A program made the position numbers and the translations under genes. A stretch of 64,000 nt of DNA from Marinactinospora thermotolerans DSM 45154 (GTDB taxonomy: Bacteria; Actinomycetota; Actinomycetes; Streptosporangiales; Streptosporangiaceae): positions 1 to 64,000 of the forward strand of contig NZ_FUWS01000014.1 in assembly GCF_900167435.1 (NCBI RefSeq), given 5' to 3'. Of the stretch, positions 5,317-29,511 are shown one piece after another (position 1 is the stretch's first letter; each line of letters opens with the position of its first letter). The notes below the pieces were generated by a model, which made no database searches, was not told the DNA's origin, and saw only the letters and a program-made list of their open reading frames with translations.

Positions 5317-5877
5317 TCATCCGGGCACCGCCGGAAACCACTCGGTGATGAGAATCGCCGGCTCCCCTTCGATGACGATCCGGTAGGTCCGCGTGGGGGT
5401 GCCGTCGGCCTCGCCCCCGTACCACAGCAGCTCCCTGCGGCTTTCCACCCCGCAGGCGTGGAGGGCGCTGCCGATCCCCGCCGCCTCCTCGGCGATCCCC
5501 CGCGCCAGCGGGGCGGGGATCCTCCCCGGCACCAGGAGCGACCGCGCCATCGCGTAACGGCGTCCGCTGCTGGCCCCGACGAGGTCGACCGACCGCGTGA
5601 CCACCGTGCTCCCCGGGGGCACGCGAAGCTGCGCGCAGTCGCCTCCCATGGACAAGGGGGCGCTGTACTGCGCCGTGGGCGAGGCCCGCACCCCTTCCAG
5701 CACGTGGGCCTCGATGAGCCTCGTCGTCGCCTCGCAGACCAGGAGGGCCCGGTGGTAGGGGCTCAACAGCTCGATCTCAAGATCGTCGAGGTGAGCGGGG
5801 CGCAGGGGCTGGGCGCGGAAGTGGCGGGATATGACGGTCCTCGCGCCGGAGTCGCGGCTGTCACCGGCCGCCCTCAC
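5317..5877 (-). CDS. Chorismate lyase-like (UbiC/DUF98) enzyme, 4-hydroxybenzoate supply
   Basis: A 186-residue protein starting at GTG 5877, whose GTGA overlaps the stop of the upstream methyltransferase gene. It contains features of the chorismate-pyruvate lyase fold: LLSPYHRALLVCEATTRL, then IEAHVLEGV, and later RRYAMARSLLVPGRIPAPL followed by IGSALHACGVESRRELLWYG. Chorismate lyases release pyruvate from chorismate to give 4-hydroxybenzoate. In hygromycin A and A201A pathways this acid primes the aryl polyketide (C7N-free coumarate-like) arm. The adjacent aryl-ACP ligase, KS, KR and ACP genes support that role. Sequence similarity to characterised UbiC is moderate, so a chorismatase giving 3-hydroxybenzoate remains possible. 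Confidence 0.75.
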   Translation of the reverse strand: MRAAGDSRDSGARTVISRHFRAQPLRPAHLDDLEIELLSPYHRALLVCEATTRLIEAHVLEGVRASPTAQYSAPLSMGGDCAQLRVPPGSTVVTRSVDLVGASSGRRYAMARSLLVPGRIPAPLARGIAEEAAGIGSALHACGVESRRELLWYGGEADGTPTRTYRIVIEGEPAILITEWFPAVPG

Positions 5878-8229: not shown

Positions 8230-8979
8230 TCAGGCGGTCATACCGCCGTCGACTGCGAGAATCTGTCCGGTGATGTAAGCGGCCCCGGGGGAGCAGAGGA
8301 AGGCCACCGCCGCGGCGACCTCCTCGGGACGGCCGGCCCTTCGCGCGGCCGTGCGGTCGAGGATCCCCCGGCGCCGTTGCGGCGGCATCTCCGCGTGGGA
8401 GGGGGTGTCCTCGATCAGTCCGGGGGCCACGCAGTTGCACGTGATCCCGAAGCGTCCGTACTCATGGGCGATCGTGCGGGCCAGGCCGGTCAGGCCCGCC
8501 TTGGCCGCGGAGTAGGCGGCCTGGCCGGGAGAACCGGCCAGGCCCGCGACCGAGGAGACGAGGACGAGACGCCCGCCCCTCTGCTCGATCATCGAGGGCA
8601 GGGCCGCCCGCGCGCAGCGGTAGGCGCTGGTGAGGTTGGCGTCCAGGTGCGCGGCCCACTCCTCTTCGGCGAGCCGGAGGAGCAGACCGTCACGGTGCCA
8701 TCCCGCGTTGGCGACGAGGACGTCCAGGCGGCCGAACGTCGCCGTGACCCGCTCGACGGCCTGGAGGCACGTCCCCTCCTCGGCGAGGTCTCCGCGGAGG
8801 AGGAGCGCACGCCGGCCGCGCGCCCGGACCGCCTCGGCCGTCGTACGCGCGCCGGCGGAGTTGGCCCGGTGGTGGACTCCGACGTCGAAACCGGCGCGGG
8901 CCAGCTCCACCGCGATCGCGGCACCGATGCTTCCGGAGGCGCCGGTGACGAGCGCGGCCGGACGTGCCCCCGTCTCCAT
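8230..8979 (-). CDS. SDR-family beta-ketoacyl-ACP reductase
   Basis: A 249-residue short-chain dehydrogenase of the FabG type: cofactor motif [13 protein letters not shown] near residue 10, NAGW at about 88, catalytic Ser in SSVAGLAGS, and YSAAK with the catalytic Tyr and Lys near 155-159. The C-terminal block [14 protein letters not shown] is typical of FabG. The start ATG at 8979 shares one nucleotide with the stop of the upstream phosphotransferase gene. It most likely reduces the beta-keto group of the aryl polyketide on the ACP before dehydration to the acrylate. No dehydratase gene is visible in the window. Confidence 0.9.
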
Positions 8980-9563
8980 CACGTCGTGGTCGGCACGCGG
9001 CCCTTCCCACCGCCGATCCCGGTGATCCTGAGGATCTCGTCCACGGTCTGGTCGACGGTGAGCTCCGCGTTGTCGATCCATACTCCCTCGTCCGGGATCT
9101 GGCCGCGCATCGCCTCGTCCAGGAAGGACCAGTCCTCGACCAGCGTCTTGTCGCGCTCGCGGTTGCGGCGGGTGGTCACCTCCGGGGCGGGCGCGAGGAC
9201 GATCAGGGTCAGCGGTGTCCTGCTGACCGCCTTCCGGTAGAAGTCGAGGTGGGGACGGAGCACGACGACGTCGTCGATCACGGGGACCACACCCGCGTCG
9301 ACATAGCTGTCGGCGAGCAGCGCGGCGTTGCGCGCCCGGAGGAAGAGCTGGCGGTCGGCCTCCTCCTCGGGCTCCGGTCCGGGCCACCTGCCGCCCGAGA
9401 CGATGAACTCCTGGAGACGGTCCACCTCGATGTGCGCTCCCAATTCGAACCTCTGGGCGAGCGCACGCGCCACCGTGGATTTTCCGCTCCCGGGAATTCC
9501 GGTGATGAGGAACGTCGCCGGTGCGGGTTCGCGGTCAATGGGAACGATCGTGAATTCCTTCAC
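8979..9563 (-). CDS. P-loop antibiotic phosphotransferase, Ard2/Hyg21-like self-resistance candidate
   Basis: A 194-residue P-loop protein with Walker [10 protein letters not shown] at residues 22-30, an acidic DDVVV segment near residue 97, and a basic lid-like stretch RRNRERDK. Size and arrangement resemble chloramphenicol-phosphotransferase-like kinases. It is translated from GTG 9563, overlapping the preceding stop, and sits among the PKS genes. A201A and hygromycin A producers are known to carry a cluster-encoded O-phosphotransferase (Ard2, Hyg21) that inactivates the antibiotic. I infer this is the equivalent, from position and P-loop kinase nature rather than alignment. A precursor-sugar kinase is the alternative. 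Confidence 0.75.
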
Positions 9564-10579
9564 GGAATGGCCTCGCTCGGTGATGAGTAACAGATGTGGA
9601 CGATTTCTCGGAAACGGGTGTGGAGCGCCGCGTCCGCGGCATCCGCTCGTTCGACAGAGACGCGGGCGTCGCCACCCGCCCGTGACATTGCGTCAGCAAG
9701 GTTATCCAAAGCGTCGAGCATTCCAGGGGCGATGGTGAGAGCCCTGCGGTAATGCGGAGCCGGATCGACGTGGTCGTTGTGCCCCACGATGAGGGCCCGG
9801 CCGAACCAGCCCGCCTTGGTGGCCGCGCTCAGGGCGGCGCGGCGGACGTCGAGGAGACGCGCGTCCGCATCGGCGTCGATGGAGGATCCGAAGAGGAACA
9901 GGAGCGGTTGGAGGTGTCCCAGGACCAGCAGGTTGACGGCGCGGGCGGTGACGCCGTCCATCCCCGCGGCGGCGAAGGAGTCCAGCAGTCTGCGCAGGGC
10001 GCGGGCGTCGGCGGCCACGGTGGCGGTGTGCCGTTCGATCTGCTCCGCCGCGTAGTCCCGCGAGGGGCGGCGGTCGGCCTCGGCGGTGACCTCGACACGG
10101 GTGACCCGGGTGCAGGAGGCGACGAGTTGGGGGGTCTTCGGCAGTTCGCGCCGGTATCCCTCGTCGGGCGGTGCGAGCGTGTCGAGCACCGCCAACGTCT
10201 CGGAGCCGGGATCCCAGCCGACCGCCAGGACGGCGTGATCGTGGTAGTGGTACAGCCCTTCGTAGTAGCTGCCCGGGTAGTGGTAGAGGTCGGGCATGAT
10301 GATGACGGGCTCGCCGGCGCCGACGCGCTCGACCACGAAGGGCCAGTTCTGGGCGCCGTGGTCGGCGAACCTCCACCCGAGCCGGCATCCGGGGAACTCC
10401 AGCGCCATGTCGCGGCCCAAAAGGTCCAGCTCCCCGCCCAGACAACGGGCGACGTCGATCGGCCCGTACCCTCGGGAGCGCAGCACCGCCTCGACGCAGC
10501 GCAGCAGGCAGGTGATGCCGTCCAGGGGGCCGTCGCGCCACCCCAGTGAGCGCTCCGGGTCGAAGACCGGTGTGGTCAT
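9560..10579 (-). CDS. BtrH-like acyl-ACP:amine acyltransferase
   Basis: The 339-residue protein begins with a domain resembling the BtrH N-terminal family (a cysteine-protease-like fold). A Cys in GITCLLRCVEAV (C24, or C28) is followed by HYHDHAVLAVGWD (His115) and LAVLDTLAP (Asp133), a plausible Cys-His-Asp triad. The C-terminal half is helical and rich in Ala and Arg. In butirosin biosynthesis BtrH moves an acyl chain from an ACP to an amine. Here the gene overlaps the ACP gene by 4 nt (ATGA), so I infer that it transfers the aryl-acrylyl chain from ACP to the 3'-amino group of the aminonucleoside. No Pur6-type ligase was found in the window, which supports this. Confidence 0.7.
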   Translation of the reverse strand: MTTPVFDPERSLGWRDGPLDGITCLLRCVEAVLRSRGYGPIDVARCLGGELDLLGRDMALEFPGCRLGWRFADHGAQNWPFVVERVGAGEPVIIMPDLYHYPGSYYEGLYHYHDHAVLAVGWDPGSETLAVLDTLAPPDEGYRRELPKTPQLVASCTRVTRVEVTAEADRRPSRDYAAEQIERHTATVAADARALRRLLDSFAAAGMDGVTARAVNLLVLGHLQPLLFLFGSSIDADADARLLDVRRAALSAATKAGWFGRALIVGHNDHVDPAPHYRRALTIAPGMLDALDNLADAMSRAGGDARVSVERADAADAALHTRFREIVHICYSSPSEAIP

Positions 10580-10860
10580 CGGGTGAGTTCCTTGCCGTGC
10601 GCCCGGGCCTGGGCGAGAAGCCGGGCGGCCAGGTCGCCGACCGTGTCGAACATCGACGGGTCGATCTCGGCGTCCTCGAAGGGGATCCCCCAGCGTTTCT
10701 CGAAGTGGGAGAAGACCACGATGAGGTCGAGGGAGTCGATCCCCGCCGCGCCCAGTTCGGTCTCCGCGGCCAGCCCCTCCAGTTCGGCCACGTGGGGACG
10801 GTCGGCGAGGGCCTTTCGGATCAGGGTGACGATGTGGTCGAGCTGCGCACTGTCGCTCAT
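10576..10860 (-). CDS. Acyl carrier protein
   Basis: A 94-residue carrier protein with the phosphopantetheine site GIDSLDL (Ser near residue 42), preceded by an acidic helix and followed by a typical helix III region (DTVGDLAARLL). The start ATG at 10860 overlaps the stop of the ligase gene, and its own stop overlaps the start of the BtrH-like gene. The immediate neighbours suggest it is loaded by the aryl ligase and unloaded by the BtrH-like transferase. A second ACP is encoded at 14257-14631. Confidence 0.9.
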   Translation of the reverse strand: MSDSAQLDHIVTLIRKALADRPHVAELEGLAAETELGAAGIDSLDLIVVFSHFEKRWGIPFEDAEIDPSMFDTVGDLAARLLAQARAHGKELTR

Positions 10861-12311
10861 GGTTCCTCCTGGGGACGAGGGTCGGATGGTCGGGGTCCCG
10901 GTCCGGGCGCGCGTCCGCCCGTCGCCGCAGCGGCCTGCGGGGAGGCGCCCAGCAGCCATCTGCGGATCTTGCCCGTGCCGGTCCGCGGCAGTTCCTCCAC
11001 CACGCGGACCACGGTGGGCACCTTGGTCGGGCTCAGCCGGCCGCGCAGCCGCGCGCGCAGCGCCCGAGGGTCGAGGCTGGAGGGTTCGCTGCCCGGGGAG
11101 GGCTCGACGAAGGCCCACAGGCGGACCGCGCCGTCGACCTCACGTCCGACCACGGCGCAGTCGCGAACGCCTGGCAACCGCCTGATCTCGGCCTCGACCT
11201 CGGCCGGGTCGACCTTGTTGCCGGCGATGTTGAGGAGGCCGCCCTGACGGCCGGCGAGGTAGAGGCGTCCGAAGCCGTCGACCCGGCCCAGGTCCCCGAT
11301 GTCGACCCAGCCGTCGGAGTCGGCGATCGGTTCGGCGCCCTCCTCGGTCACGAGCAGCGGGGACAGACCCGCGCAACGGACCCTCACGGCGCCGGGGGCC
11401 CCGGCCGTCTGCGGGGCGCAGACGTCGATCCCCTCCAGCGGCCTTCCCACCGACCCCGCGGGGTCGGCCGGTCCCAGGGTGATCTGCCCGATCTCGGAGG
11501 CGCCGTAGTGGTTCCACAGCGGCGCGCCGCGGCGCGCCCACTCCTCGGCGATCTCCGGGGGCAGCAGGTCGCCCGCGCTGACGCAGCGTTTCCAGACCCG
11601 CATCTGCGGGATGCCCGACCCGGCGTACCAGCGGTACAGGGCGGGAACCGTCTGCAGCACCGTCACCGCGCCGCGGTGGACCAGCGCCGCCACTCCGGCG
11701 GGGGTGGCCGGCACCGAGGGGATCGCGTGTCCCGCGCCGGCGGAGAGCGCGGCGAGGATTCCGGCCTCGAGGGAGTAACTGTGGTTGAGCGGGCTGGTGG
11801 TGAGAACGCAGTCGATCGGTTCCAGGCCGAGGGCCTGGGCGTAGGCCCGGGAGTTGGCCATGGAGCCCGCCCAGGCGCGGCACACGATCCGGGGCCTGCC
11901 CAGGGTGCCGGAGGTGACCATGGCGATCGCCGGCCCCGGGGGAAGCCCTGGTGGATCGCCCGTGCGGGCGACCGCTACCACGTGGCCGTCCTCGACCACG
12001 TGTCCGGCGCCGAAGCCGCGGACCGCCGTGTCGCGTTCGGCCCGGGCCATCCTGTCGTGCAGCACGAGCACCGGAGCGCCGATGGCGTTGATCGCGGCGA
12101 AGGCGACGACGGAGGGGATGTCGTTACGGGCGACGAGGGCGATACGGCCCTGCTCGGTCACCCCTTCCCCACGAAACCGTCCCACCGCCTCCTCGACCGC
12201 CCGGAGGAGCCGGCGGTAGCTGACGTGGCCCGTCGTGTCGAGGAGCGCGACCCGTTCGCCTCCGCCGGCCCGGGTCCAGGCGCGGAGCAGCTCCAGCAGG
12301 GAGTCAGCCAC
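10857..12311 (-). CDS. AMP-forming aryl-acid:ACP/CoA ligase
   Basis: A 484-residue ANL-superfamily enzyme. Core motifs in order: VTSGTLGRPR (A3, near residue 140), the NHSYSLEAGI region (A4-like), NHYGASEIG (A5), GWVDIGDLGRVDGFGRLYLAGR split across A7/A8, and TGTGKIRR with the catalytic Lys (A10). It is shorter than most benzoate-CoA ligases. GTG 12311 overlaps the previous stop by 8 nt and its stop overlaps the ACP start by 4 nt. With the chorismate-lyase-like enzyme in the same operon, the likely reaction is adenylation of 4-hydroxybenzoate and transfer to an ACP thiol, as proposed for hygromycin A. Confidence 0.88.
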   Translation of the reverse strand: MADSLLELLRAWTRAGGGERVALLDTTGHVSYRRLLRAVEEAVGRFRGEGVTEQGRIALVARNDIPSVVAFAAINAIGAPVLVLHDRMARAERDTAVRGFGAGHVVEDGHVVAVARTGDPPGLPPGPAIAMVTSGTLGRPRIVCRAWAGSMANSRAYAQALGLEPIDCVLTTSPLNHSYSLEAGILAALSAGAGHAIPSVPATPAGVAALVHRGAVTVLQTVPALYRWYAGSGIPQMRVWKRCVSAGDLLPPEIAEEWARRGAPLWNHYGASEIGQITLGPADPAGSVGRPLEGIDVCAPQTAGAPGAVRVRCAGLSPLLVTEEGAEPIADSDGWVDIGDLGRVDGFGRLYLAGRQGGLLNIAGNKVDPAEVEAEIRRLPGVRDCAVVGREVDGAVRLWAFVEPSPGSEPSSLDPRALRARLRGRLSPTKVPTVVRVVEELPRTGTGKIRRWLLGASPQAAAATGGRAPGPGPRPSDPRPQEEP

Positions 12312-13110
12312 GGTTCCCCTCCGGTTCCCGCACCAGGCGGATCCGGTAGCGCGCCCTCGCGCCCGGCGCCTCGACGGTGAGTTCGCGCCCCTCGGAGCCG
12401 GGCTCGCGCAGCCGCTCGGCCAGAGTGGCCAGGACGCCTGAGGCCGCGGATCCGGGCGGAAGCGCGGCCGCGCCGGAGCACCACCCCGCCTCCTCCACGA
12501 TCTCGACGGACCGCAGCCCCGCCAGTCCGCCCACGTCGCGCCGTCGCGCCTCCTCCCGCGCCTCGACGAGGAGGAAGGCCGCCGTGCCCGTCGCGTGCTC
12601 CCCGTCGCCCACGCGGGCCGCGGCGGCGGGGCTCAGGAAGTCGAAGGCGCCGCACAGCACGCTCGGGTCGCCGCCGACCCGGATCCGCCGCACGGCCTGG
12701 GCGACCGTCTGGATCCCCGCCGCGGGGCCGAGCAGGGTGGCGGCGTAGCCGGCCAGTCCCAGGCGCATGCACAGTGACGCGGTCATCCCGTGCGGGGTGA
12801 AGTGGAGGAACGCCTCGGGGTCGAGCCAACGGGCCCCCTTCGCGTCCAGCCGTTGTCGGATGGACTCGGCGACGTGGCCCGTCCCGTAGAGGGAGCCGAG
12901 CAGAAGGGAGACCCGCGCGGGCTCGGCCCGTGACCGCTCCAGGGTCCCCCGCGCGAGGTCGACGAGCCGGTCGGAAAGGGCGGTGGTGAGCCGGGTGACA
13001 GCGGGCCAGCCGGGCTCGCCCTCCCCGTGGGCCCGCCACAGCTCCGTCAGGTCCACCCGGGCGGCCGTGACCGCGGTCACGACACAGCGCGGCGGCGTCG
13101 TCTGGGTCAT
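12304..13110 (-). CDS. Truncated KS/chain-length-factor-like protein without catalytic cysteine
   Basis: A 268-residue thiolase-fold protein corresponding roughly to the N-terminal half of a ketosynthase. The nucleophile region reads TLLGPAAGIQTVAQAV near residues 125-140, with Leu-Gly where KS enzymes have Ala-Cys, and it is followed by the usual VGGDPSVLCGAFDFLSP strand-turn. Most of the C-terminal half with the two active-site His motifs is missing. ATG 13110 has AGGAG upstream and lies two nt beyond the KS stop. It resembles a KSbeta/CLF partner for the KS encoded immediately upstream, so the two probably form a heterodimer. A function in starter decarboxylation or chain-length control is inference only. 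Confidence 0.75.
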   Translation of the reverse strand: MTQTTPPRCVVTAVTAARVDLTELWRAHGEGEPGWPAVTRLTTALSDRLVDLARGTLERSRAEPARVSLLLGSLYGTGHVAESIRQRLDAKGARWLDPEAFLHFTPHGMTASLCMRLGLAGYAATLLGPAAGIQTVAQAVRRIRVGGDPSVLCGAFDFLSPAAAARVGDGEHATGTAAFLLVEAREEARRRDVGGLAGLRSVEIVEEAGWCSGAAALPPGSAASGVLATLAERLREPGSEGRELTVEAPGARARYRIRLVREPEGNRG

Positions 13111-13111
13111 G

Positions 13112-14260
13112 TCAGGCACTCCTGAAGAGCAGGGCGACGTTGAGCCCGCCGAGACCGCAGGAGACGGACAGCGCGGCGCGCAACCGCGGCGCCGGCCGGG
13201 CCCCGTCGTGGTCCACCAGGTCGAGATCGGCGTAGGCGGGGTCGAGTGCGCCGGTGATCCGGGTCGGTGTGATGGCGTCCCGCTCCAGGCACAGCACGCA
13301 GATCAGCGCCTCGATCGCGCCCGCCGCCCCTTGGAGGTGCCACAGGACGGACTTGGAGCTCACGACGGGGATCTCGGCCGTGCGCGCGCCGAAGACCTCG
13401 CGCAGGGCCTCGATCTCCACCCGGTCCCCCTGCCGTGTTCCCGGGCCGTGGGCGTTGACCAGGTCGACCTCGTCGGGATCCATGCCCGCGTCGGCGAGGG
13501 CCCTCTCGACGGCGACGCGGACGCCCGTGGCGCGGGGGGTGGCGAGGTGGTCGGTCATGTTGGTGACGCCGGCCCCGGCGAGGACCGCGTGGACGCGGGC
13601 TCCCCGCGCCTCGGCCGAATCGCGGCGCTCCAGGTGGAGGAGTCCCGCCCCCTCGGACACGCCGATACCGCGCCGGTCGCGGGTGAAGGGGCGGCAGCCG
13701 TGGGGGGACAGCGTGCGCAGGGAGTTCAGGCCGAGGAAGGCGGTCTCGGTCACGGCGTCGGCCCCGCCCGCCAGGACGGTGTCGGCGTCGCCCGCCCGCA
13801 GCATGTCCCTGCCCATGGAGATTCCCAGGGCGCCCGAGGCGGAGGCCGAGGCGACGGTGACGGCCTCGCCCGTCACCGAGAGGGCCTCGGCGCAGCGCGA
13901 GGCGAGGAGGCCGGGGAACAGTCCCTGTGTCCCGCCGTCCGTGGTGGTGGGCTCGGTGCTGCCCAGGACGACCGCGGTCCGGTGGGACGGTGGCGGTGCC
14001 GCCTCCCGGACCGCCTGGCGGGCGGCCCTGACGGCGAGCTCCAGGGTGCGGCCGGGGGAATCGGGGCGCTCGTCGGGTCCGGGCACGAAGCCCGCCCGGT
14101 GGAGGGAGGCGGTCGAGGTGTCGAAGTGCTCGATGTCGCGTATGCACGCCCTCTTCTCGCAGAGCCCCCGCCACAGGGAGTGGACGTCGGGCCCCGCGGG
14201 GGAGCAGGCGCCCCGGCCGGTGACGACCGTTTCGGTCGGATCCGCCGACATCGATGTCAC
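13112..14260 (-). CDS. Ketosynthase homologue with Ser replacing the active-site Cys
   Basis: The 382-residue thiolase-fold protein spans a full KS. The nucleophile-elbow sequence is TVASASASGALGI, aligning Ser140 (codon TCC) with the Cys of TACSSG in ordinary KS enzymes. Both active-site histidines are retained: H271 in NAHGPGTRQGD and H308 in KSVLWHLQGAAG. The GGLN loop near the C-terminus is also present. GTG 14260 overlaps the ACP stop (GTGA). Ser-type KS proteins often decarboxylate rather than condense, or use atypical acyl transfer, so the chemistry here is open. In context it should act in the single extension of aryl-ACP by methylmalonate. Confidence 0.87.
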   Translation of the reverse strand: MTSMSADPTETVVTGRGACSPAGPDVHSLWRGLCEKRACIRDIEHFDTSTASLHRAGFVPGPDERPDSPGRTLELAVRAARQAVREAAPPPSHRTAVVLGSTEPTTTDGGTQGLFPGLLASRCAEALSVTGEAVTVASASASGALGISMGRDMLRAGDADTVLAGGADAVTETAFLGLNSLRTLSPHGCRPFTRDRRGIGVSEGAGLLHLERRDSAEARGARVHAVLAGAGVTNMTDHLATPRATGVRVAVERALADAGMDPDEVDLVNAHGPGTRQGDRVEIEALREVFGARTAEIPVVSSKSVLWHLQGAAGAIEALICVLCLERDAITPTRITGALDPAYADLDLVDHDGARPAPRLRAALSVSCGLGGLNVALLFRSA

Positions 14261-14631
14261 CGTCCTCTCCGGGCCAGGGCCGCCCTGCGGAGCGCGTCGA
14301 CGAGGGAGGCGAAGGTCGTCGCGGAGAACACCGAGTCGTCGGAGAGCGCGATGCCGTATCGGCGCTCCAGCCGGGACACCGCCCCGATCAGGACGACGGA
14401 GTCCACGCCGAGGTCGGCGAGCAGGTCGTCGTCGGATATGACGGGCGGTGGTTCGGACCCCATCTGGCGGGCGAGTGCCGCGCGGATCTCCTCGGACAGA
14501 CGTGCCCAGGACGGACCGGCCTGGGCCGCCGGCTGCGAACCGTCCACGTGTCCGTCCGGGGAGGCCCGCTCGAAGACGGCGGCCCCCACGGACGCCACGT
14601 CCACCTCGTCTGAATCGCCCGGAGCGGCCAC
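14257..14631 (-). CDS. Acyl carrier protein with N-terminal extension
   Basis: About 124 residues starting at GTG 14631, which has AAGGAGAG at good spacing; longer in-frame extensions lack any ribosome-binding site. The C-terminal 80 residues are a carrier domain with phosphopantetheine site LGVDSVVL and the helix III region FSATTFASLVDAL. The N-terminal 40 residues are acidic and Pro/Ser rich and resemble nothing I recognise. It is the first gene of the roughly twelve-gene minus-strand operon and is followed by the KS with a 4-nt overlap, so it may carry the extender unit for that KS. The second ACP (10576-10860) would then hold the aryl starter or product. Confidence 0.85.
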   Translation of the reverse strand: MAAPGDSDEVDVASVGAAVFERASPDGHVDGSQPAAQAGPSWARLSEEIRAALARQMGSEPPPVISDDDLLADLGVDSVVLIGAVSRLERRYGIALSDDSVFSATTFASLVDALRRAALARRGR

Positions 14632-15318
14632 CGTGACTCTCCTTCGATCGGAAATCGACGGATCAGGATGCGTGAATGAACCGAATAGGTCGCTGACGAA
14701 TCGTTTATTCAGCGACGGGCACCGGATGCCCCATCGGGGAAATCGTCTCCACGGAAGAACGTGACGTATATCGACGGAAATAAGCTGCCCGGGCCACAAC
14801 CAAGCTACGTGCCACATTCCCCTCCGTCAACACCCGATTACCATCCCCTTCCATATTTGAAACACAACATAAAACAGGAAAATGGACACTTTGCCACTTA
14901 TGCCAAGATGCACGATAAGAGAGACTGTCGTGTTAGAAGTCCTGCATCGTCCCCATTCACGAAGAAGGCAGCGCCGGGCCGTCCCCTGGACACCCACGGG
15001 AGACACCCCGCGAGAACGGCCACCCCGACCGCCGGCACGCGGGCCGGACGACCTCTCGGTCGAACATCACAACCTCAAAAATAATGGTTTCACCATATAA
15101 GAGCGCCGTACCGCACGAATCCATAAATAAGGGCATCGCGGAAGACGTACCGACCGTCCGGCGAAATTCCTCCATTGACCCGCCCGAACGACGGCCCATA
15201 CAATTCCCGTGCGCCTCGATCGACCGAGACATCTCGCCGCGGCACGCTTTCACCATCACGTTCGAGCCGGCTTCGCCCCCAAGACCATGAACGACCGATT
15301 TCTACTGGACGGGTCTTC
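14632..15318. promoter_or_regulatory. AT-richer divergent intergenic region, main cluster promoter region
   Basis: These 687 nt separate the first gene of the long minus operon from the first gene of the plus operon. Base composition is visibly lower in GC than all flanking genes, with runs such as ATTTGAAACACAACATAAAA near 14855. Only implausible short frames are present. It must contain the promoters of both halves of the cluster and is the most likely binding target of a pathway regulator, though I could not identify a convincing operator. Confidence 0.55.
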
Positions 15319-16347
15319 ATGTCAACAGGAATCAAACGCGCGCTGGTCACCGGCGCCGGCGGTTTCATCGGCCATCATCTCGTCGCCCACCTGCGACGCA
15401 ACGGATACTGGGTACGCGGCGTCGACCTCCACCTCCCCGAGTTCCGACCCACCGAAGCCGACGAGTTCCTCCTGCTCGACCTGCGGGAAAAGAGGAACGC
15501 CGAGAGAGCGACCTCCGACATCGACGAGGTGTACGCGCTGGCGGCGGACATGGGCGGGATGGGTTTCATCTCCGCCAACCACGCCACGATCATGTACAAC
15601 AACTCGCTCATCGACTTCAACACCCTGGAGGCGGCGCGGCGGAACGGAGCCTCCCGGTTCTTCTACGCCTCCTCCGCCTGCGTCTACCCGTCCCACCTCC
15701 AAAGCTCGGCGGACGTCACGGGACTGCGCGAGGAGGTCTCCCACCCCGCCGACCCCGAGGACGGGTACGGCTGGGAGAAACTCCACATCGAGCACGCCTG
15801 CGCCTACTACCGGGAGGAGTTCGGCCTGGAGACCCGGGTCGCCCGGCTGCACAACGTCTACGGCCCCTACTCGACCTACGCCGGCGGCCGGGAGAAGGCG
15901 CCCGCGGCACTGGCGCGCAAGGCGGCGCTGGCCGCGCCCGGTGGCGAGATGGAGATCTGGGGGGACGGCCGGCAGACCCGTTCCTTCTGCTACGTCGACG
16001 ACTGTGTCGAGGGGATCCGCCGGCTCACCGCGTCGGACTTCCCCGGTCCCGTCAACATCGGCACCGAGCACCTGATCGCCATCGACGACCTGGCCCGGAT
16101 GCTGTTGTCGATCGCCGGCAAGGAGGACGTCCGCCTGGTCCACCGGCCCGGCCCCCAAGGGGTCCGCGGCCGTAACTCCGACAACACCCTGCTGCGCGAG
16201 AAGCTGCGCTGGGAACCGGCGACCCCCCTCTGGGAGGGGATGAGCGCCATGTACCACTGGATCGAGCGGGACATCGCCCGACGCGGCCGCGACGTGGCCG
16301 TCTCCTCGATCGTCCCCCGAGCCGAGGAGCCGCATGTCCGGCCGTGA
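15319..16347 (+). CDS. GDP-mannose 3,5-epimerase (plant GME-like)
   Basis: A 342-residue extended SDR. It has VTGAGGFIGHHLV at the N-terminus, then hallmark GME sequences: YALAADMGGMGFI, MYNNSLIDFNTLEAARRNG, SSACVYPS, DGYGWEKLHIE with the Tyr/Lys pair, YGPYSTYAGGREKAPAA, and GDGRQTRSFCYVDDCVEGI. This pattern is characteristic of GDP-mannose 3,5-epimerase, which converts GDP-D-mannose to GDP-L-galactose in plant ascorbate synthesis. ATG 15319 is chosen because homology starts there. The 3' end overlaps the next gene by 14 nt. In the A201A pathway GDP-L-galactose is the precursor of the hexofuranose, so the role fits exactly. Confidence 0.92.
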   Translation: MSTGIKRALVTGAGGFIGHHLVAHLRRNGYWVRGVDLHLPEFRPTEADEFLLLDLREKRNAERATSDIDEVYALAADMGGMGFISANHATIMYNNSLIDFNTLEAARRNGASRFFYASSACVYPSHLQSSADVTGLREEVSHPADPEDGYGWEKLHIEHACAYYREEFGLETRVARLHNVYGPYSTYAGGREKAPAALARKAALAAPGGEMEIWGDGRQTRSFCYVDDCVEGIRRLTASDFPGPVNIGTEHLIAIDDLARMLLSIAGKEDVRLVHRPGPQGVRGRNSDNTLLREKLRWEPATPLWEGMSAMYHWIERDIARRGRDVAVSSIVPRAEEPHVRP

Positions 16348-17464
16348 CATCTCGACCGCCGTCGTCGTGACCACGATCTCCGACGGCGGTTTCCTCGACC
16401 GCCTGGCGCCCGCCCTGCGGGACGCCGGCGCGCGGCTGATCGTGATCCCCGACCGCAACACCGGTCCCGCTCTTTTCGCCGCCTGCGAGCGCCATCGCCG
16501 CCTCGGCCTCGACGTGGTCTGTCCTTCCGTGGCGGAACAGCAGGATCTCCTGGAGCGACTGGCGGTTCCCGACCTCATCCCCTACCACTCCGACAACCGG
16601 CGCAACGTCGGCTACCTCATGGCCTGGATGGAGGGATTCGACGTCATCGTCTCGATGGACGACGACAACCTCCCCACCACCGACGACTTCGTCGAACGCC
16701 ACCAGGTGGTGTGCCAGGGCCCGCGCACCCAACCGGTGACCGCCTCGTCGGACGGCTGGTTCAACAACTGCGCGTTGCTGGAGGTGGAGCCCACCGAGGT
16801 CTTCCCCCGTGGTTTCCCCTTCCACGCGCGTCCGGCCCACGCGCAGGCACGGACATCCGTCTGCGAGCGCCCCGCCGACGTGCGGATCAACGCGGGCCTG
16901 TGGCTCGGCGACCCCGACGTCGACGCGATCACCCGGCTCGCCGTGCGTCCCAACGCGCTCGCCCACTCCGGGGGCAGCGTGGTCCTGGCCGAGGGCACGT
17001 GGTGCCCGGTGAACTCGCAGAACACCGCCGTGCACCGAGACGCCCTGCCCGCCTATTACTTCCTGCGCATGGGCCAACCCGTGGACGGTGTGCCGATGGA
17101 GCGGTTCGGGGACATCTTCAGCGGCTACTTCGTCCAGGTGTGCGCCCAGCACCTCGGGCACGCGGTCCGCTTCGGCGACCCCGTCGTGGAGCATCCGCGC
17201 AACGAGCACGACCTCCTCGACGACCTGCACAAGGAGGTCCCCGCCGTCCGGCTCCTCGACGACATCCTCGACCACCTGCGCGACCACCCGCTGGAGGGGG
17301 GCGACTACCTCGAGACCTACGAGTCGCTCAGTTATGCCCTCCAGGAGATCGCCGAGCGGGTCAACGGTCGCGCGTGGTCGCCGGACGCGCGGGCCTTCCT
17401 TCACCGAAGCGCCCACCTGATGCGTTCCTGGACGGGGGCACTGCGCACGGTGGCGGGAACGTGA
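16334..17464 (+). CDS. mtdL: GDP-L-galactose mutase, MtdL-like (RGP/UAM superfamily)
   Basis: A 376-residue protein resembling plant reversibly glycosylated polypeptides (UDP-arabinopyranose mutases). It has a GT-A-like DDD triplet at residues 109-111 (VIVSMDDDNLP), a PRGFPFHAR segment near 158-166, INAGLWLGDPDVDA near 185-198, GTWCPVNSQNTAVHRDALPA, and the C-terminal FGDIFSGYFVQVCAQHLGHAV. The published A201A work identified MtdL as the enzyme that contracts GDP-L-galactopyranose to the furanose. Position directly after a GDP-mannose 3,5-epimerase gene makes the same role here very likely. It is not related to flavin-dependent UDP-galactopyranose mutase, and no FAD motif is present. Confidence 0.87.
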   Translation: MSGRDISTAVVVTTISDGGFLDRLAPALRDAGARLIVIPDRNTGPALFAACERHRRLGLDVVCPSVAEQQDLLERLAVPDLIPYHSDNRRNVGYLMAWMEGFDVIVSMDDDNLPTTDDFVERHQVVCQGPRTQPVTASSDGWFNNCALLEVEPTEVFPRGFPFHARPAHAQARTSVCERPADVRINAGLWLGDPDVDAITRLAVRPNALAHSGGSVVLAEGTWCPVNSQNTAVHRDALPAYYFLRMGQPVDGVPMERFGDIFSGYFVQVCAQHLGHAVRFGDPVVEHPRNEHDLLDDLHKEVPAVRLLDDILDHLRDHPLEGGDYLETYESLSYALQEIAERVNGRAWSPDARAFLHRSAHLMRSWTGALRTVAGT

Positions 17465-18819
17465 GGCGCGGACCGGCCCTCCACCCCGCACCGGCGGGCC
17501 CCTCTCCCGGGGAACGGCTGCGCTCACTCGGGCTCGCCGCATCGGCCGACCTGCACCACGGTCCCGGCCTCTACACGTCGCTGCGCGGCCACGTCACGGC
17601 CCTCGGCCCGCTCTCCGATGGGCCCTGCTGTCTCGGGATCGACGCGGGGGCCACGATGACCCGGGTCCAGTTGGGGACGTGCGCGCCGGACGGCCCCCGG
17701 CCCCTGCTGAAGATCCGTTACCTCACCGCCGACAGGCCGGAGGGGTTCTTGGAGCAGGTCGCGGAGATCACCACGGTCGTCCGCGCGTTGGACCTGGCGG
17801 AGCCCCGAGCGATACGCATAGGCATCGCGGGCCCCGTCTACGACTCCGGTCCCCTCCCCTCCGCGCAGATCACCAACCGGCCCGGCTGGTCGCTGACGGA
17901 CTTCGCCGCCCGGCTGCGCGAGCTCACCGGCTGCCACGACACAGCGGTGGCCAACGACATGACCGTGGGAATGCGCTGGCTCCCGGGAGGTCCCTGGGAA
18001 CGGCTGCTCCGTCCGTTGCTCAGGCCCCGCCCCGCCGCCTCTTCCCCGTCGAGCACCGGCAGGCTGGTGAAGTGCCAGGTCGGCACCGGACTCAACATCG
18101 CCATGCGCGCGGCCGAGGGCGGCGTGGAGGCCTTCGAGTACGGTCACCATCCCTTTCCCGCCACGGGCGAGGCCGACCGGAACCTGGTGCGGGCGCTCGC
18201 CGCGATCCACGGCCGGGAGATCGTCACCTTCGAAGACGTCCTCGGTGGCAGGGGGTTCGGGCCGCTCGTGCTCGCGCACGCGGCGTCGGCCACGCCCGAA
18301 AGCCGGTTCCTGTTGCCCGCGGACCTCCGTGATCTGCTGGACTCCGTCCCGCGCGCGCCCACCGCCGTGCCCCCCGTCCCCGGGATCACGCGCACCGTGC
18401 TCGCGCTCGACACCCGGATACGGGAACTGTCGTCCCGTTTCTCCCCCGACCCCACGCGCACGTCGCTCCTGGACGCCTACGCCGGTTTCGGCCTGTGGGC
18501 GCTCGGCGACTTCCTGCGTGGGGGCTTCTGGCCGGGGTTTCGCCCCATTCTGTCCGCCTATGGCCGCCACCTGGCGTTGTTCGTCCTGTCAGCGGCGCAG
18601 ATAACCGCTTGCGACGACCTCTATGTTGGGGGCAGGCTGGTCATGGATCCCACGGTGCGGCAGGGCTTTCTCACGGCCTATCCACGACTGGCCGGTCAGT
18701 TCCCGCACGGCCGACGGCTCGTGGACCGCGTGGCGGTCCACGCCTTCGACGAACCCGACTACGAACACTTCCTGTTCCTGACGGCCGCCGAGAGCGTGCC
18801 GGCCCAGGAGCGGGGATGA
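17461..18819 (+). CDS. Glucokinase-like sugar kinase
   Basis: The 452-residue protein starts at GTG 17461, overlapping the mutase stop (GTGA). It shows the glucokinase (Glk) pattern: CLGIDAGATMTRVQLG as the phosphate-1 loop, IGIAGPVYDSG, then a TNRPGWSL segment, the NDMTVGMRWL region with the catalytic Asp, KCQVGTGLNIAMRA as phosphate-2, and FEYGHHPFPATGEAD for the EGGH-equivalent. Insertions make it longer than bacterial Glk (about 320 residues). It may phosphorylate mannose or another hexose feeding GDP-mannose formation. A kinase that modifies the antibiotic or an intermediate is an alternative, and the EGGH to EYGH change suggests an unusual substrate. Confidence 0.75.
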   Translation: MRRGPALHPAPAGPSPGERLRSLGLAASADLHHGPGLYTSLRGHVTALGPLSDGPCCLGIDAGATMTRVQLGTCAPDGPRPLLKIRYLTADRPEGFLEQVAEITTVVRALDLAEPRAIRIGIAGPVYDSGPLPSAQITNRPGWSLTDFAARLRELTGCHDTAVANDMTVGMRWLPGGPWERLLRPLLRPRPAASSPSSTGRLVKCQVGTGLNIAMRAAEGGVEAFEYGHHPFPATGEADRNLVRALAAIHGREIVTFEDVLGGRGFGPLVLAHAASATPESRFLLPADLRDLLDSVPRAPTAVPPVPGITRTVLALDTRIRELSSRFSPDPTRTSLLDAYAGFGLWALGDFLRGGFWPGFRPILSAYGRHLALFVLSAAQITACDDLYVGGRLVMDPTVRQGFLTAYPRLAGQFPHGRRLVDRVAVHAFDEPDYEHFLFLTAAESVPAQERG

Positions 18820-20528
18820 ACGGTGGAGGACCCGTGCCCCTCAACGACGCCCGTCACAGCACCGTCGTCGTCGAAGGCGTGAGCAAGAGCTTCGGCCCAC
18901 GCACCGTGCTGAGCGGTGTCTCCTTCACGGCCGGGCCGGGGCAGCGGGTCGGGGTGGTGGGACGCAACGGGGTCGGCAAGACCACCCTGCTGCGCATCGT
19001 CGCCGGCCTGGAGACCCCGGACGAGGGGAGCGTGCGCCGCCACCCGCCCGAATCCAACGTCGGTTACCTGCCCCAGGAGATCACCCCGGTCCCCGGGGAG
19101 ACCCTGCGCGGTTACCTGACCCGCAGCACCGGGGTGGCCGGCGCCGAGCGGGAGCTTCAGCGTCTCGCCGCCGGCCTGGCCGACGATCCGGGCCTGGCCG
19201 ACGCCTACGCCACCCAGCTCGACCGCACGATGGCCCTGGGCGCCGGCGACTTCGACGCCCGCGCGGCAGCGACGGTCGAACGTGTCGGGCTGGGCGCCGA
19301 CGCCCTCGACCAGGAGATGAGCGGGATGAGCGGCGGTCAGCTGGCGCGGGCCGCCCTGACCGCGATCCTGCTGTCCCGTTTCGACCTGCTGCTACTGGAC
19401 GAGCCGACGAACAACCTCGACTTCGCCGGTCTGGAGCTGCTGGAGCGCTTCATCGAGGAGGTGCGCACGGGCATCATCGTGGTCTCCCACGACCGGGTCT
19501 TCCTGGAGCGCACCGTCACCCACGTCCTGGAGATCGACCACGGCTCACACGAGGCGGTGTTGTACAGCGGCGGGTGGGCCGCCTACCGGACCGAGCAGCA
19601 CGAGGCCCGACAGCGCCAATACGAGAAGCACGACCTGTACGTCTCGGAGCGCAAGCGCATCGAGGCCATGATCCACCGCAAGCGCGAGTGGGCCCGTAAG
19701 GGGGCCGCCCGCGCCAAGAGCCGCGCCCCCGACAACAACAAGGCGGCGCGGCGCGGCAGGCAGGAGGGCGCCGAGAACCTCGCGGGCGGCAACCGGGCCC
19801 TGGAACGACGGCTGGAGCGCCTGGAAGCGGTCGAGGAGCCCTACAAGGGCTGGGAGCTCCGCTTCGGTTTCGGCGAATCCGAACGCAGCGGAGAGGTCGT
19901 CGCGCAGATGCGCGGCGTCGTGGTCGAACGCGGCCGCTACCGGCTCGGACCGATCGACCTGGACCTGCGTTGGCGTGACCGGGTCGGGCTGGTCGGACCG
20001 AACGGGTCCGGCAAGTCGACCCTGGTCTCCCTCCTGCTGGGGTGGATCACGCCGACCGCGGGCGAGGTCACGCTCGGCTCCAACGTCCACATCGGGCGTT
20101 TGGACCAGCACCGCGCCCTGCTGGAGGGCAAGGAGCGGCTCTTCGACGGTGTCCAGAGCATCACCGGCCTCGACCAGGAACAGACCCGTTCCCTGCTGGC
20201 GAAGTTCGACCTGGGCGCGATGATGGCCGAACGCAGCTTCGGTTCCCTGTCACCGGGCGAACGGACCCGGGCCGAGCTGGCTCTGCTGATGCACGAGCAG
20301 GTGAACTTCCTGGTCCTCGACGAACCGACCAACCACTTGGACCTCGTCGCGATCGAGCAGCTGGAACAGGCGCTGCCGATGTTCGGCGGGACGCTCCTCC
20401 TCGTGACCCACGACCGCCGGTTGCTCGACCGGACCCGGCTCAACCGCTACCTCCTCCTTGAGGAGGAGAGGGAGGGTCCCCTGCGGCGCGCGCGGATACG
20501 CGAGTCCTTCACACACGCAGCGGATTGA
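18816..20528 (+). CDS. ABC-F ribosomal protection/resistance ATPase, Ard1-like
   Basis: A 570-residue protein with two ABC ATPase cassettes and no membrane segments. The first has Walker A GRNGVGKTT, signature MSGGQ and Walker B LLLLDEPTNN. The second has GPNGSGKST, SPGERTRAEL and FLVLDEPTNH. The linker between them is Arg/Lys-rich (RKREWARKGAARAKSRAP), as in ABC-F proteins. ATG 18816 overlaps the previous stop; GTG 18834 behind GGTGGAGGA is an alternative start. ABC-F proteins displace drugs from the ribosome. Ard1 of the A201A producer is a resistance protein of this general class, and A201A targets the peptidyl transferase centre, so self-protection is the expected role. Confidence 0.92.
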   Translation: MNGGGPVPLNDARHSTVVVEGVSKSFGPRTVLSGVSFTAGPGQRVGVVGRNGVGKTTLLRIVAGLETPDEGSVRRHPPESNVGYLPQEITPVPGETLRGYLTRSTGVAGAERELQRLAAGLADDPGLADAYATQLDRTMALGAGDFDARAAATVERVGLGADALDQEMSGMSGGQLARAALTAILLSRFDLLLLDEPTNNLDFAGLELLERFIEEVRTGIIVVSHDRVFLERTVTHVLEIDHGSHEAVLYSGGWAAYRTEQHEARQRQYEKHDLYVSERKRIEAMIHRKREWARKGAARAKSRAPDNNKAARRGRQEGAENLAGGNRALERRLERLEAVEEPYKGWELRFGFGESERSGEVVAQMRGVVVERGRYRLGPIDLDLRWRDRVGLVGPNGSGKSTLVSLLLGWITPTAGEVTLGSNVHIGRLDQHRALLEGKERLFDGVQSITGLDQEQTRSLLAKFDLGAMMAERSFGSLSPGERTRAELALLMHEQVNFLVLDEPTNHLDLVAIEQLEQALPMFGGTLLLVTHDRRLLDRTRLNRYLLLEEEREGPLRRARIRESFTHAAD

Positions 20529-20543: not shown

Positions 20544-21479
20544 ATGGACCTGGTGTGGTTGGGTGACGACGTGTCCTCGGGCTCCCTCGCCGCGCCGGGG
20601 TGGGTGCTGGCACGGGGGCTCGCCGAGCGTGGGCACCGGGTGTCCTGGATCCTGCGCGACGATCGGTGCGCGCCCCGCAGCGTCGACGGGGTGCGGCTGT
20701 GTCCCTTCCCCTATGACGAGCGGGAGTGGCCGCCCGGCGAAGGGCTCTACTGGGGGCTGGTCCGCCTGCTCGGCCGTGAGGTGCCGGTCGACACGCTGAT
20801 CGTCGATGGCGGGCGGGGCCTTCGCGCCGTGGCCCGGCGGGCGGTGGCCGCCCGCGGTCTGGAGGTCCGGGTGCGCTCCGCCCGCTCGATGTGGGAGCGA
20901 GACGGACAAGACCCGCCCCCCTTCCCCGTTCCGCTCCCCCCTCACTCCCCCGCCCCCGCGGCCGGGGCGTGCGACGGGGAGGGACCGATCCGGGTCGTCG
21001 CCGGCGCGTTGGGCTCCCCGGCCGACCTCGTGGACCTCGCCCTCCCGGTCCTCCACGCGCTCGCCGAGGCGCGGACCCGCCCGGTGGAGCTGCGTTTCGC
21101 CGTGTTGAACGGGCGCGACGCGCTGTGGGAGGGGGCCGCCGCGCTGAGCGGGTCACCGGGCTTTCGCGGAACGGTCCCGCTGTGGGGGCGGGGGTTCGAC
21201 GAAGGGGGCCTGTGGCGGCTTCTCGCCGAAAGCGACCGCTACCTCTCGCTGACCCGTGGGTTCGACATGGCGGCCGGCGCCGCGGCGCTCCACGGGACCG
21301 CGGTGGTCGCTCCTCGGGACGCGCCTTGTCCCGCCGCAGCCCGCTTCGACGGCCCCCATGACCTGGCCCGGTCGCTCACCGAGCCGCTCCTGCCCTCCGA
21401 TCCGGCCGCCGTCGAGCGCCTTCGGACGAGACACGCGGGCGCCGCCGTCCTGGACGCCTGGGAGAAGGGGCTGTGGTGA
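20544..21479 (+). CDS. GT-B-like putative glycosyltransferase
   Basis: A 311-residue protein with a GT4-like start (DLVWLGDDVSSGSLAAPGWV, then LARGLAERGHRVSWIL) and a second Rossmann-like half beginning near residue 150 (IRVVAGALGSPADLVDLALP). Its C-terminal region FDMAAGAAALHGTAVV sits where GT4 enzymes have the E-x7-E motif, but that motif is absent. It starts 15 nt after the ABC-F gene and overlaps the following GT4 gene. It may be a degenerate partner or an unusual transferase. The cluster has two more convincing glycosyltransferases (6935-8215 and 21476-22600), matching the two reported for A201A, so this gene's job is uncertain. Confidence 0.65.
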   Translation: MDLVWLGDDVSSGSLAAPGWVLARGLAERGHRVSWILRDDRCAPRSVDGVRLCPFPYDEREWPPGEGLYWGLVRLLGREVPVDTLIVDGGRGLRAVARRAVAARGLEVRVRSARSMWERDGQDPPPFPVPLPPHSPAPAAGACDGEGPIRVVAGALGSPADLVDLALPVLHALAEARTRPVELRFAVLNGRDALWEGAAALSGSPGFRGTVPLWGRGFDEGGLWRLLAESDRYLSLTRGFDMAAGAAALHGTAVVAPRDAPCPAAARFDGPHDLARSLTEPLLPSDPAAVERLRTRHAGAAVLDAWEKGLW

Positions 21480-22601: not shown

Positions 22602-23891
22602 TCACGTGGCCCCCGGCCCTGCGCGGAGGTCGAGCAGGACTCGGCGATCGGCGCCTGTGACGCCATGACAGTAGAGTTCGGCCACCGCGCGAAGCAGGGC
22701 GGACCGCTCCCCCATCCCCCGCCGTCCCGTCACCACCACTTTCGCGTGGTCGGTCCCTGCCGCGCGGATGTTGCCCTGTAGGGGGACCCGAAGCACCGGG
22801 TGGGGTCCGATCTCCACGAACATCCGGACCCCCTCGTCGAGGAGGGCGGCGACGACCGGGGCGAACCGGACGGGTTCACGAAGGTTACGAGCCCAGTAGC
22901 ACGGGTCGGCCCACGGCGCGACGGCCGGGTCCGGATCGACGGTGGAAACCCATCGCAGACGTGGGGCGCGCGGCCGGACGTCCCTGAGACATCCCCGCAG
23001 CTCATCGAGCACGCCCTCGACGGCGGGACTGTGCGAGGCCGCGTCGATCCGGACCCAGCGGCAGCGGAGCCCTTCGGGCTCCCAGCGCTCGACGAGCCGG
23101 CGCAGCGCGTCGGCGTCGCCGGTCAGTACCGACTCGCCCGGTGAGGAGAGGGCCGCGATGGACACCGCCCCGGCCGATTCGGCGCAGGCGCGCTCCGTGG
23201 TGGCGGTGTCGCCCCGGGCGACGAGCATCCGACCACCCGCGGGGGTCGCGGCGAGCAACCTGGAGCGGTGGTACATCACCCGGACCGCGTCGGACAGGGT
23301 GAGGGCGCCGGCCACGTGAGCCGCGGCGATCTCGCCCATGCTGTACCCGACCACCAGATCGGGCCGCAGCCCGTGCGTGAGAAGTGTCCGCGCGATGGCC
23401 ACCTGGACGGCGAAGATGAGCGGCTGGACGACGGCGAGGTCGTCCACCGGGCGTTCACGCGCCTCCCGCAACATCTGCACCAGGCCGAAACCGGATTCGG
23501 CGCGGAAGAGGGAGTCGATCCGGGCGAGCGTCTCCGCTCCGGCGGGGATGCTGTCGACGAGGTCGCTTCCCATGCCCGCCCATTGGCCGCCATGCCCGCC
23601 AAAGCACCAGGCGACCGGGGAGTCCGCGTAGGCCGCTCGCCCGCTGGCCCAGGACCGGTCGGGCACCCCTTCGAGGAAGAGGCGCAGCCCTTTGAGCATC
23701 CCCGGGGGATCTGATCCGAGGACCGCGAGCCGGTGCGCGAGCTCCTCCACGTCCCGTTGCCTCGCCTTCTCACCGGCAAAGGCCCGATCGCCTTCTTCCA
23801 GAAGTTCTCCGGCCATTGCCGTTATCTCTTCCCGGGTATCGGATGAGAGCAGAATAAGCCTCTCCGAGAAGGCGTGGACAGCTTTCGCCAT
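22602..23891 (-). CDS. Discrete acyltransferase (AT), methylmalonyl-CoA type
   Basis: A 429-residue stand-alone AT with a PKS-like N-terminal linker (residues 10-90) and the AT core. The nucleophile motif is GYSMGE with Ser184, and the fingerprint His lies in DAASHSPAV (AASH, residues 284-287). The xASH form of this motif is associated with methylmalonyl-CoA, while malonyl-specific ATs have HAFH. CWARNLREPVRF-like YWARNLREPV and FVEIGPHPVL are also present. It probably supplies methylmalonyl to an ACP for the single extension, which explains the alpha-methyl of an alpha-methyl-coumaroyl arm. It is transcribed away from the GDP-mannose 4,6-dehydratase gene, separate from the other PKS genes. 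Confidence 0.9.
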   Translation of the reverse strand: MAKAVHAFSERLILLSSDTREEITAMAGELLEEGDRAFAGEKARQRDVEELAHRLAVLGSDPPGMLKGLRLFLEGVPDRSWASGRAAYADSPVAWCFGGHGGQWAGMGSDLVDSIPAGAETLARIDSLFRAESGFGLVQMLREARERPVDDLAVVQPLIFAVQVAIARTLLTHGLRPDLVVGYSMGEIAAAHVAGALTLSDAVRVMYHRSRLLAATPAGGRMLVARGDTATTERACAESAGAVSIAALSSPGESVLTGDADALRRLVERWEPEGLRCRWVRIDAASHSPAVEGVLDELRGCLRDVRPRAPRLRWVSTVDPDPAVAPWADPCYWARNLREPVRFAPVVAALLDEGVRMFVEIGPHPVLRVPLQGNIRAAGTDHAKVVVTGRRGMGERSALLRAVAELYCHGVTGADRRVLLDLRAGPGAT

Positions 23892-28322: not shown

Positions 28323-28769
28323 TCACCCTGACGACGTTTCCCTTAGCCAACGATGCGCATCCGCGACGACGTTTCGGATGAAATCGCTTCCGGTGCGGCG
28401 CGCGTCCTCATCGAGGATCGCGATGTCACGGGGAGAGAGCCACGCAAAACAGGAATGCTTGTCCCGTTCGAGCCGTGGAGCGTCCAGGTCTCCGATGACG
28501 TCCACGACGAAGTCGACCTCGCTGTGGACCACACCTTCGGCCTCCCATTCACGGCGCCCGAGGCATGTGAGCGTCCGCCTCAGCCGCCATCCGGTCTCTT
28601 CGAGGATTTCTCTGCGCAGGGCCTCGATGAGTGTCTCGCCCGGTTCGACCGCGCCACCCACGATGTCCCAGCACCCGGGAAAGAGGGAGCGGGACTCGGA
28701 TCTGCGTTGGACGAACACCCGGTCGCGGCCGTCGCGAATGAGGGCGCCCACCACCACGGGTCCGCTCAT
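28323..28769 (-). CDS. Nudix hydrolase (Pur7/AtaP7-like)
   Basis: The protein has a complete Nudix box, GGAVEPGETLIEALRREILEETGW split across the GX5EX7REUXEEXGU pattern, with preceding VQRRSESRSLFPGCWDIV. ATG 28769 gives 148 residues and begins at the conserved first strand (MSGPVVVGALIRDG) with CGGAGA upstream. A longer frame to 28883 is possible. Pur7 of the puromycin cluster hydrolyses 3'-amino-3'-deoxy-ATP to the monophosphate and pyrophosphate, removing a toxic intermediate. This is the first gene of the puromycin-like minus operon and the rightmost cluster gene. Confidence 0.88.
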   Translation of the reverse strand: MSGPVVVGALIRDGRDRVFVQRRSESRSLFPGCWDIVGGAVEPGETLIEALRREILEETGWRLRRTLTCLGRREWEAEGVVHSEVDFVVDVIGDLDAPRLERDKHSCFAWLSPRDIAILDEDARRTGSDFIRNVVADAHRWLRETSSG

Positions 28770-29511
28770 TCGGTCTCCGAAGATTCCACGTCGCTCCCAG
28801 ACATCGACCGAAGACGCATTTTCCTGTATTCCCCCGCGCCGGAGAACAGCATTTTCCGATGCGGCGGGGAACGCCATATCCACCCTTCCCTCGCCATCTG
28901 AACGGGCGGACGATTCACGACACGACTCCCAGGCTAAGTCAGGCCATGAAGAGGGTCAATACCTCCACAGGGCGAAACCCCTCCGTCTCGCACGCGCCAT
29001 CCCACGACACGCACCCCGCAGACCTTCAGGGAATGCACACCACTCCCACCCCACCGGAAATCAGAAACTCCTTTTCCTCCCCTAAAAGGCATTTGGAGTA
29101 TTAACCACGACAAACCCTTTTTCTTCTTTCAGGAAGATACATGCATATAGCCCGACTTTCCGGCCTTCTTCACCGCGGTCGGCGGGACAAGGCGCGGGTC
29201 ACAGATCACAGGCCGCACCGGCCTCCGGACGGCAGACCCGGCCCTCCGCCCTCCCCCGGCGCCGCTGTGGTCATGAGCCCGCCCCCGGTTCCCGGCCGCG
29301 GGTGTCGGGGAGGCCGAGAACCGGGCCGTTCCCGGCCCGGGAGGGCGTCCGCGGTCACAGCGGTCCCGGGCCGGACCGTCAGCGGAAAGGCCCCTGTCCT
29401 ACACCCCGCGGGCGGCCCCTCCCCTGCCGCGAGGGACCACCCGCGGCGGGGTCCACTGGGGGGAGCGGGCTCTTCCCCGACGGCGTCCACCAGGCCGCGT
29501 GAACGGCACCG
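28770..29511. other. Non-coding boundary region right of the antibiotic cluster
   Basis: About 740 nt without a convincing gene. From 28,890 to 29,140 the DNA is clearly less GC-rich than the flanks and probably holds the promoter of the puromycin-like operon. From about 29,140 to 29,510 the DNA is very GC-rich and has only implausible frames. Position and composition suggest this is the right boundary of the cluster. Confidence 0.5.

Follow-up and report, generated by a model that had tools for sequence, protein, structure and literature searches.

In fatty acid and polyketide synthesis, elongating ketosynthases (KS) are considered to require their nucleophilic Cys. How, then, is an aryl polyketide extended by a gene cluster whose KS carries Ser at this position? 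No second full KS was found in the window (the whole 64-kb stretch of DNA analysed here); the sole full KS is of the Ser type. Judging from its sequence, this enzyme is most likely a member of a distinct KAS I/II-like elongating lineage that uses a Ser nucleophile and forms a heterodimer with a half-length partner. The KS gene and its key positions are as follows.

13112-14260 (-): elongating-type (FabF/KAS II) KS with Ser140 at the nucleophile site (PF00109/PF02801, AF2, Foldseek)
13841-13843 (-): codon 140, TCC for Ser, at the canonical Cys position (alignment)
13448-13450 (-): His271, equivalent to FabF His303 (alignment)
13352-13354 (-): Lys303, equivalent to FabF Lys335 (alignment)
13337-13339 (-): His308, equivalent to FabF His340 (alignment)
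13151-13159 (-): gating loop Cys368-Gly-Leu370, equivalent to FabF Phe398-Gly-Phe400 (alignment; loop function after PMC7138838 and PMC10054515)

Translation of the reading frame gives a KS of 382 aa, which matches both PF00109 (89.6 bits) and PF02801 (99.2 bits) above the Pfam cut-offs of 20.8. The nucleophile elbow reads V-A-S-A-S140-A-S-G, and alignment to the solved FabF structure puts Ser140 in the place of Cys, in agreement with the earlier note on this DNA, which had read Ser at the catalytic Cys position and had stated that both catalytic His residues remain; His271 and His308 align with the FabF pair. Asp279 and Glu282 are also retained. Trp307 directly precedes His308, where the canonical KS has Gly. 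The enzyme has the two catalytic His residues and the Lys of KAS I/II proteins with Ser140 instead of the Cys nucleophile, and it does not display the loss of catalytic His that characterizes pseudo-KS and CLF proteins. An AF2 model built on an alignment of 23 sequences reached a pLDDT of 90.4 and a pTM of 0.93, while an alignment of 7 close sequences gave a pLDDT of only 44. The best Foldseek match of the model is FabF (TM 0.89-0.91), and the predicted fold of the KS is FabF-like.

The Ser-type KS set comprises 19 rows, 18 of them distinct. Ser140, His271, His308, Lys303, Asp279 and Glu282 are invariant across the 19 aligned rows. The comparison sample outside this lineage contains 89 KSs that keep both His residues and Cys, and 13 non-Cys KS-like proteins. 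Cys occupies the nucleophile position in 89/89 of the catalytic-looking KSs, versus Ser in 19/19 relatives. At least one His is lost in 12 of the 13 non-Cys proteins, as in CLF subunits. The exception is a Mycobacterium protein (L083:9419-10699) that keeps both His residues and has a TSGDASG elbow, with Asp at the aligned Cys position. Ser140 is encoded by TCC (nine rows), TCG (four), AGT (two), AGC (two), TCT (one) and TCA (one), so that all six Ser codons and thus both codon boxes are used. Most Ser codons lie a single base away from Cys, yet Ser140 is kept. The uniform Ser in both codon boxes, set against the uniform Cys of the 89 KSs and the His deficiency of 12 of the 13 non-Cys proteins, suggests that the residue is retained beyond chance.

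In a quick tree, the Ser rows form a single clade (SH-aLRT 100) on a long branch (1.28). Ser140 either persisted while its codon changed from one box to the other or has two separate origins from Cys (TGC to TCC and TGC to AGC). One subclade (L046, L122-L124) uses AGY codons and the others use TCN, and the change from Cys to Ser may have occurred twice. Ser140 could be an inherited passenger on this one long branch, but the codon evidence speaks against it. Only nine of the residues that are invariant in the lineage are rare (<10%) in Cys-type KSs, namely L29, S140, L178, T183, G188, S202, Q310, C368 and L370.

The following genes surround the KS gene.

5317-5832 (-): chorismate-lyase-like protein, candidate for MtdV (PMC8706298), with a weak PF01947 match (E 0.048)
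8230-8976 (-): beta-ketoacyl-ACP reductase (KR; SDR)
8979-9563 (-): P-loop kinase, Ard2-like, a self-resistance candidate
9560-10579 (-): BtrH-N-like protein, putative transferase of acyl groups from ACP to an amine, with a weak Pfam match (homologues in relatives)
10576-10860 (-): ACP 2, DSL motif
10857-12311 (-): AMP-forming acyl ligase (aryl acid activation)
12304-13119 (-): half-length KS-like (CLF-like) partner with no elbow Cys and no catalytic His (alignment, profile)
14257-14634 (-): ACP 1, DSV motif, overlapping the KS start; the GTG start was picked by eye
16334-17464 (+): MtdL, GDP-pyranose mutase (GT75; identity to PDB 7yua/7xpr)
18495-20528 (+): ABC-F protein, Ard1-like, start uncertain
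22602-23891 (-): acyltransferase (AT) for the extender unit

The genes for ACP 1, the KS and the partner overlap one another, by 8 bp in the case of the KS and the partner. The partner (271 aa) lacks the elbow Cys, as had been noted earlier: its residue there is Ala at the aligned position, and its relatives have Gly or Ser. The C-terminal part that bears the His residues in a KS is missing. The partner family profile matches ketosynthases in the PDB and the actinorhodin CLF over approximately the first 150-200 residues. Assignments of the partner as AmcG or as a full CLF were discarded, because the matches are generic KS-like ones that fall mostly in the N-terminal half. His110 and Cys117 (P0002 numbering) are invariant in 13/13 partner homologues.

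The protein encoded at 16334-17464 is identical (376/376) to the crystallised MtdL (chains of PDB 7yua/7xpr), which acts as GDP-L-galactose mutase when Marinactinospora thermotolerans makes A201A (PMC9937993). The window therefore holds the known A201A (mtd) cluster of this organism, which substantiates the link to A201A and hygromycin A drawn previously; hygromycin-type relatives share the Ser-type KS and the gene order. FkbM methyltransferases are also encoded in the cluster. According to a review, MtdV provides 4-hydroxybenzoate via a chorismate lyase activity (PMC8706298). The alpha-methyl-coumaroyl unit needs a dehydratase, and none was recognised among the annotated A201A cluster genes at 5317-28901; this enzyme may act in trans or may be the unannotated protein at 20544-21479 or 28353-28901. 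The window starts at the very end of its contig, so that the leftmost part of the cluster falls outside the sequence, as would the second canonical KS left of the window that the earlier note had named as a way to overturn its reading.

A single-protein scan of genome contigs for KS relatives gave no match, and a plasmid collection yielded only generic KSs and no relative of the partner. One sampled genome (G414) yielded a KS with 54% identity, and the surrounding cluster is hygromycin A-like, with a myo-inositol-phosphate synthase and a mutase. A two-sequence alignment search recovered eight more Ser-type KSs, seven from Streptomyces (including S. hygroscopicus) and one from Nocardia bovistercoris, and searching 393 genomes from the genus of G606 (probably Streptomyces) with a profile added further orthologues and more divergent members. 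The core common to the clusters consists of an ACP, the Ser-type KS, the half-length partner, the ligase, the AT, the KR and the BtrH-like acyltransferase, and this set recurs in distant clusters. Some divergent Ser-type KSs adjoin a gene resembling that of 4-amino-4-deoxychorismate synthase. This gene is part of a second cluster type (L127-L129, L131 and L132; G743, G850, G770 and G606), which has the Ser-type KS, half-length partner, ligase, AT, KR and an Ard2-like kinase, with a BtrH-like gene in most; its product is probably an aminoaryl amide. Another locus (L130, genome G816) is a divergent hygromycin-like cluster with a mutase, a glycosyltransferase, an AT and a Ser-type KS that is 45.6% identical to the window KS (tblastn).

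What the analysis shows directly is how the sequences look and how invariant their features are, which genes the cluster holds, the modelled fold and the cluster identity; condensation by the KS/partner pair, an acyl-serine and an order of steps are inferred. The chances are about even that the pair performs one condensation, between an aroyl starter and methylmalonyl-ACP, via an acyl-serine. The ligase would load 4-hydroxybenzoate from the chorismate lyase onto one ACP, and the AT would load methylmalonyl onto an ACP. The pair would decarboxylate the extender with His271, His308 and Lys303 and join it to the aroyl group, which would most likely be bound to Ser140 as an ester. Space for the aromatic ring would be created by the Phe to Leu (Leu178 and Leu370) and Phe to Cys (Cys368) replacements. 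The KR would reduce the condensation product, dehydration would follow, and the BtrH-like protein would pass the alpha-methyl-coumaroyl group to an amine.

The overlapping genes for ACP 1, KS and partner, the recurring core set, the FabF-like fold and an aryl unit started from 4-hydroxybenzoate all point to the Ser-type KS as the A201A aryl extender. Condensation through Ser is suggested by the catalytic residues that are invariant in all 19 relatives, whereas the CLF-type pseudo-ketosynthases in the sample have lost His, and by the retention of Ser across six codons within one clade (SH-aLRT 100). An oxyester of the aroyl group should give up its acyl moiety less readily than a thioester would, and an acyl-serine would therefore be chemically demanding; this counts against the reading, as does the presence of Cys368 as an alternative nucleophile. 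A precedent is provided by DpsC, a KASIII-like priming enzyme with a thiolase fold that self-acylates on Ser (PMC12664062).

It is possible that a KS acts in trans, as the earlier note had allowed. The Ser-type KS would then be an acyltransferase, a starter loader or a decarboxylase, and the condensation would fall to another KS of the cell, either FabF or the second of the type II KSs. We consider this unlikely. Thiolase-fold enzymes with altered triads can serve as acyltransferases (DpsC, PMC12664062; ChlB3, PMC9573744), the Marinactinospora thermotolerans genome carries FabF and other KS genes, and the cluster is truncated on its left where the contig stops. Against this, the Ser-type KS retains all condensation residues, the ligase and the AT for loading are already in the cluster, and no Cys-type KS accompanies the cluster in several genera. 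The regions of approximately 19 kb on each side of the gene in five relatives contain no KS besides the Ser type, and the same was observed for a sixth with a shorter region on one side (contig end). The Ser type is also the sole full KS on the G414 contig and at the Nocardia locus. KASIII and type III PKS gave no match inside the examined clusters; their genes lie elsewhere in those genomes. Within the regions covered, another KS near the cluster and a KASIII or type III PKS within it were thus discarded as candidates, and the Ser-type KS is favoured as the condenser of the cluster.

Somewhat unlikely as a whole is the proposal that the Ser lineage gave up the canonical Cys thioester in another manner, with either no acyl-enzyme and a direct enolate attack or the acyl group on a relocated Cys368. 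In the former case, which appears decidedly unlikely, the KS would decarboxylate (methyl)malonyl-ACP, and the enolate would attack aroyl-ACP directly in a ternary complex. The residues for decarboxylation are retained and the window encodes two ACPs; a second ACP-like gene of weak similarity is found in 4/5 divergent Ser-type KS clusters. However, two ACPs equally fit separate loading and release, and a ternary complex requires both to dock at one active site. A chemically idle Ser would also let Ala or Gly appear among the 19 relatives.

The latter case, which is more doubtful again, places an aroyl thioester on Cys368, with Ser140 only assisting, for example in the oxyanion hole. The gating loop S-Cys368-G-Leu370-G-G is present in 19/19 Ser-type KSs, in which Cys-Gly-Leu replaces Phe/Tyr-Gly-Phe. 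Among the 89 Cys-type KSs, position 368 is Phe, Tyr, Leu or Ser and is never Cys (0/89). Cys368 and Cys189 are the only two Cys residues invariant in the Ser lineage. The linked changes of Phe to Cys368 and Phe to Leu370 are absent from the earlier note. In FabF, the loop at 399-402 (GFGG) is a gate, and Phe400 supplies an amide of the oxyanion hole (PMC7138838). The FabB counterpart of Cys368 in the alignment, Phe390, forms part of the lining of one thiolactomycin-holding pocket, and the carbonyl of thiolactomycin is bound by both catalytic His residues (PMC10054515); by homology with the literature, the position equivalent to 368 borders the extender pocket. The role of the FabF gate and the position of FabB Phe390 suggest that Cys368 is probably in or adjacent to the active site. 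Cys368, like Leu370 and Leu178, may serve to give an aryl group more room in the pocket; alternatively, it may act chemically. A loop that is mobile in catalysis (PMC7138838) is a strange place for a nucleophile, and the Phe to Cys change may merely enlarge the pocket. Because the two changes share one branch, the association of Ser140 with Cys368 does not count as statistically independent evidence that they are coupled; their retention does. Given this second invariant Cys, the earlier suggestion that the aryl polyketide is extended without a Cys thioester may or may not hold, and Ser140 is preferred as the acyl carrier. That codon 140 is truly a Cys codon misread by a single base (TGC for TCC), which had been named as a way to overturn the Ser reading, or that the KS gene is dead has a negligible probability, since 19 relatives from separate genome projects carry Ser in six different codons and the frame is intact.

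The A201A and hygromycin A clusters are already known antibiotic clusters. Our literature search, beyond which the original cluster papers lie, returned no account of the invariant Ser or the linked Cys368; the Ser is possibly mentioned in those papers. On sequence grounds, the exchange of Cys for Ser is real and is retained in every related cluster found, and it would be a variation in polyketide building. A natural lineage with an invariant Ser, the other catalytic residues kept and a changed gating loop makes the need for a thioester acyl-enzyme directly testable. ASA[SA]G together with SCGLGG provides a sequence handle for clusters that make single-extension aryl amides and also reaches the little-explored 4-amino-4-deoxychorismate synthase type. 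The Ser-type KS may also prove useful for loading aromatic starters.

The window KS shares its fold, two His, Lys, Asp and Glu with FabF/KAS II and with the ishigamide HR type II PKS ketosynthase (PDB 6kxd), and differs in that Ser replaces Cys, the Phe residues of the gating loop give way to Cys and Leu, and the partner is of half length. The AmcF-AmcG (KS-CYF) pair of cispentacin biosynthesis is similar in that a type II-like KS works with a KS-like partner of reduced size, an AMP-ligase charges an ACP with an unusual starter, and a single extension follows, but AmcF has Cys146 where the window KS has Ser (PMC10698177). Membership in AmcF (NCBIfam NF058662) was discarded: the window KS scored 214.4 bits and a hygromycin-type KS 170, below the cut-off of 325 and at or below the level of unrelated actinobacterial KSs (about 240 bits). 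DpsC-type priming KSs also have a Ser nucleophile on a thiolase fold, but DpsC is KASIII-like with Ser-His-Asp, whereas Pfam and Foldseek place the window KS in KAS I/II with a His-His pair and not among the DpsC-like enzymes. The nucleophile Cys is likewise replaced in KSQ and CLF subunits; in contrast to KSQ, the window KS has no Gln, and in contrast to the CLF subunits of the sample, it keeps both His residues. The closest counterpart is the KS of the hygromycin A cluster, which we take to be Hyg10. The two enzymes are 51-56% identical and have the Ser, the Trp-His pair and SCGLGG in common, and the clusters share the order ACP-KS-partner-ligase-ACP-BtrH-KR-GT, with nothing essential differing. 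By sequence, the window KS and the hygromycin A KS are orthologues, and orthology together with synteny places the window KS in the A201A/hygromycin A type.
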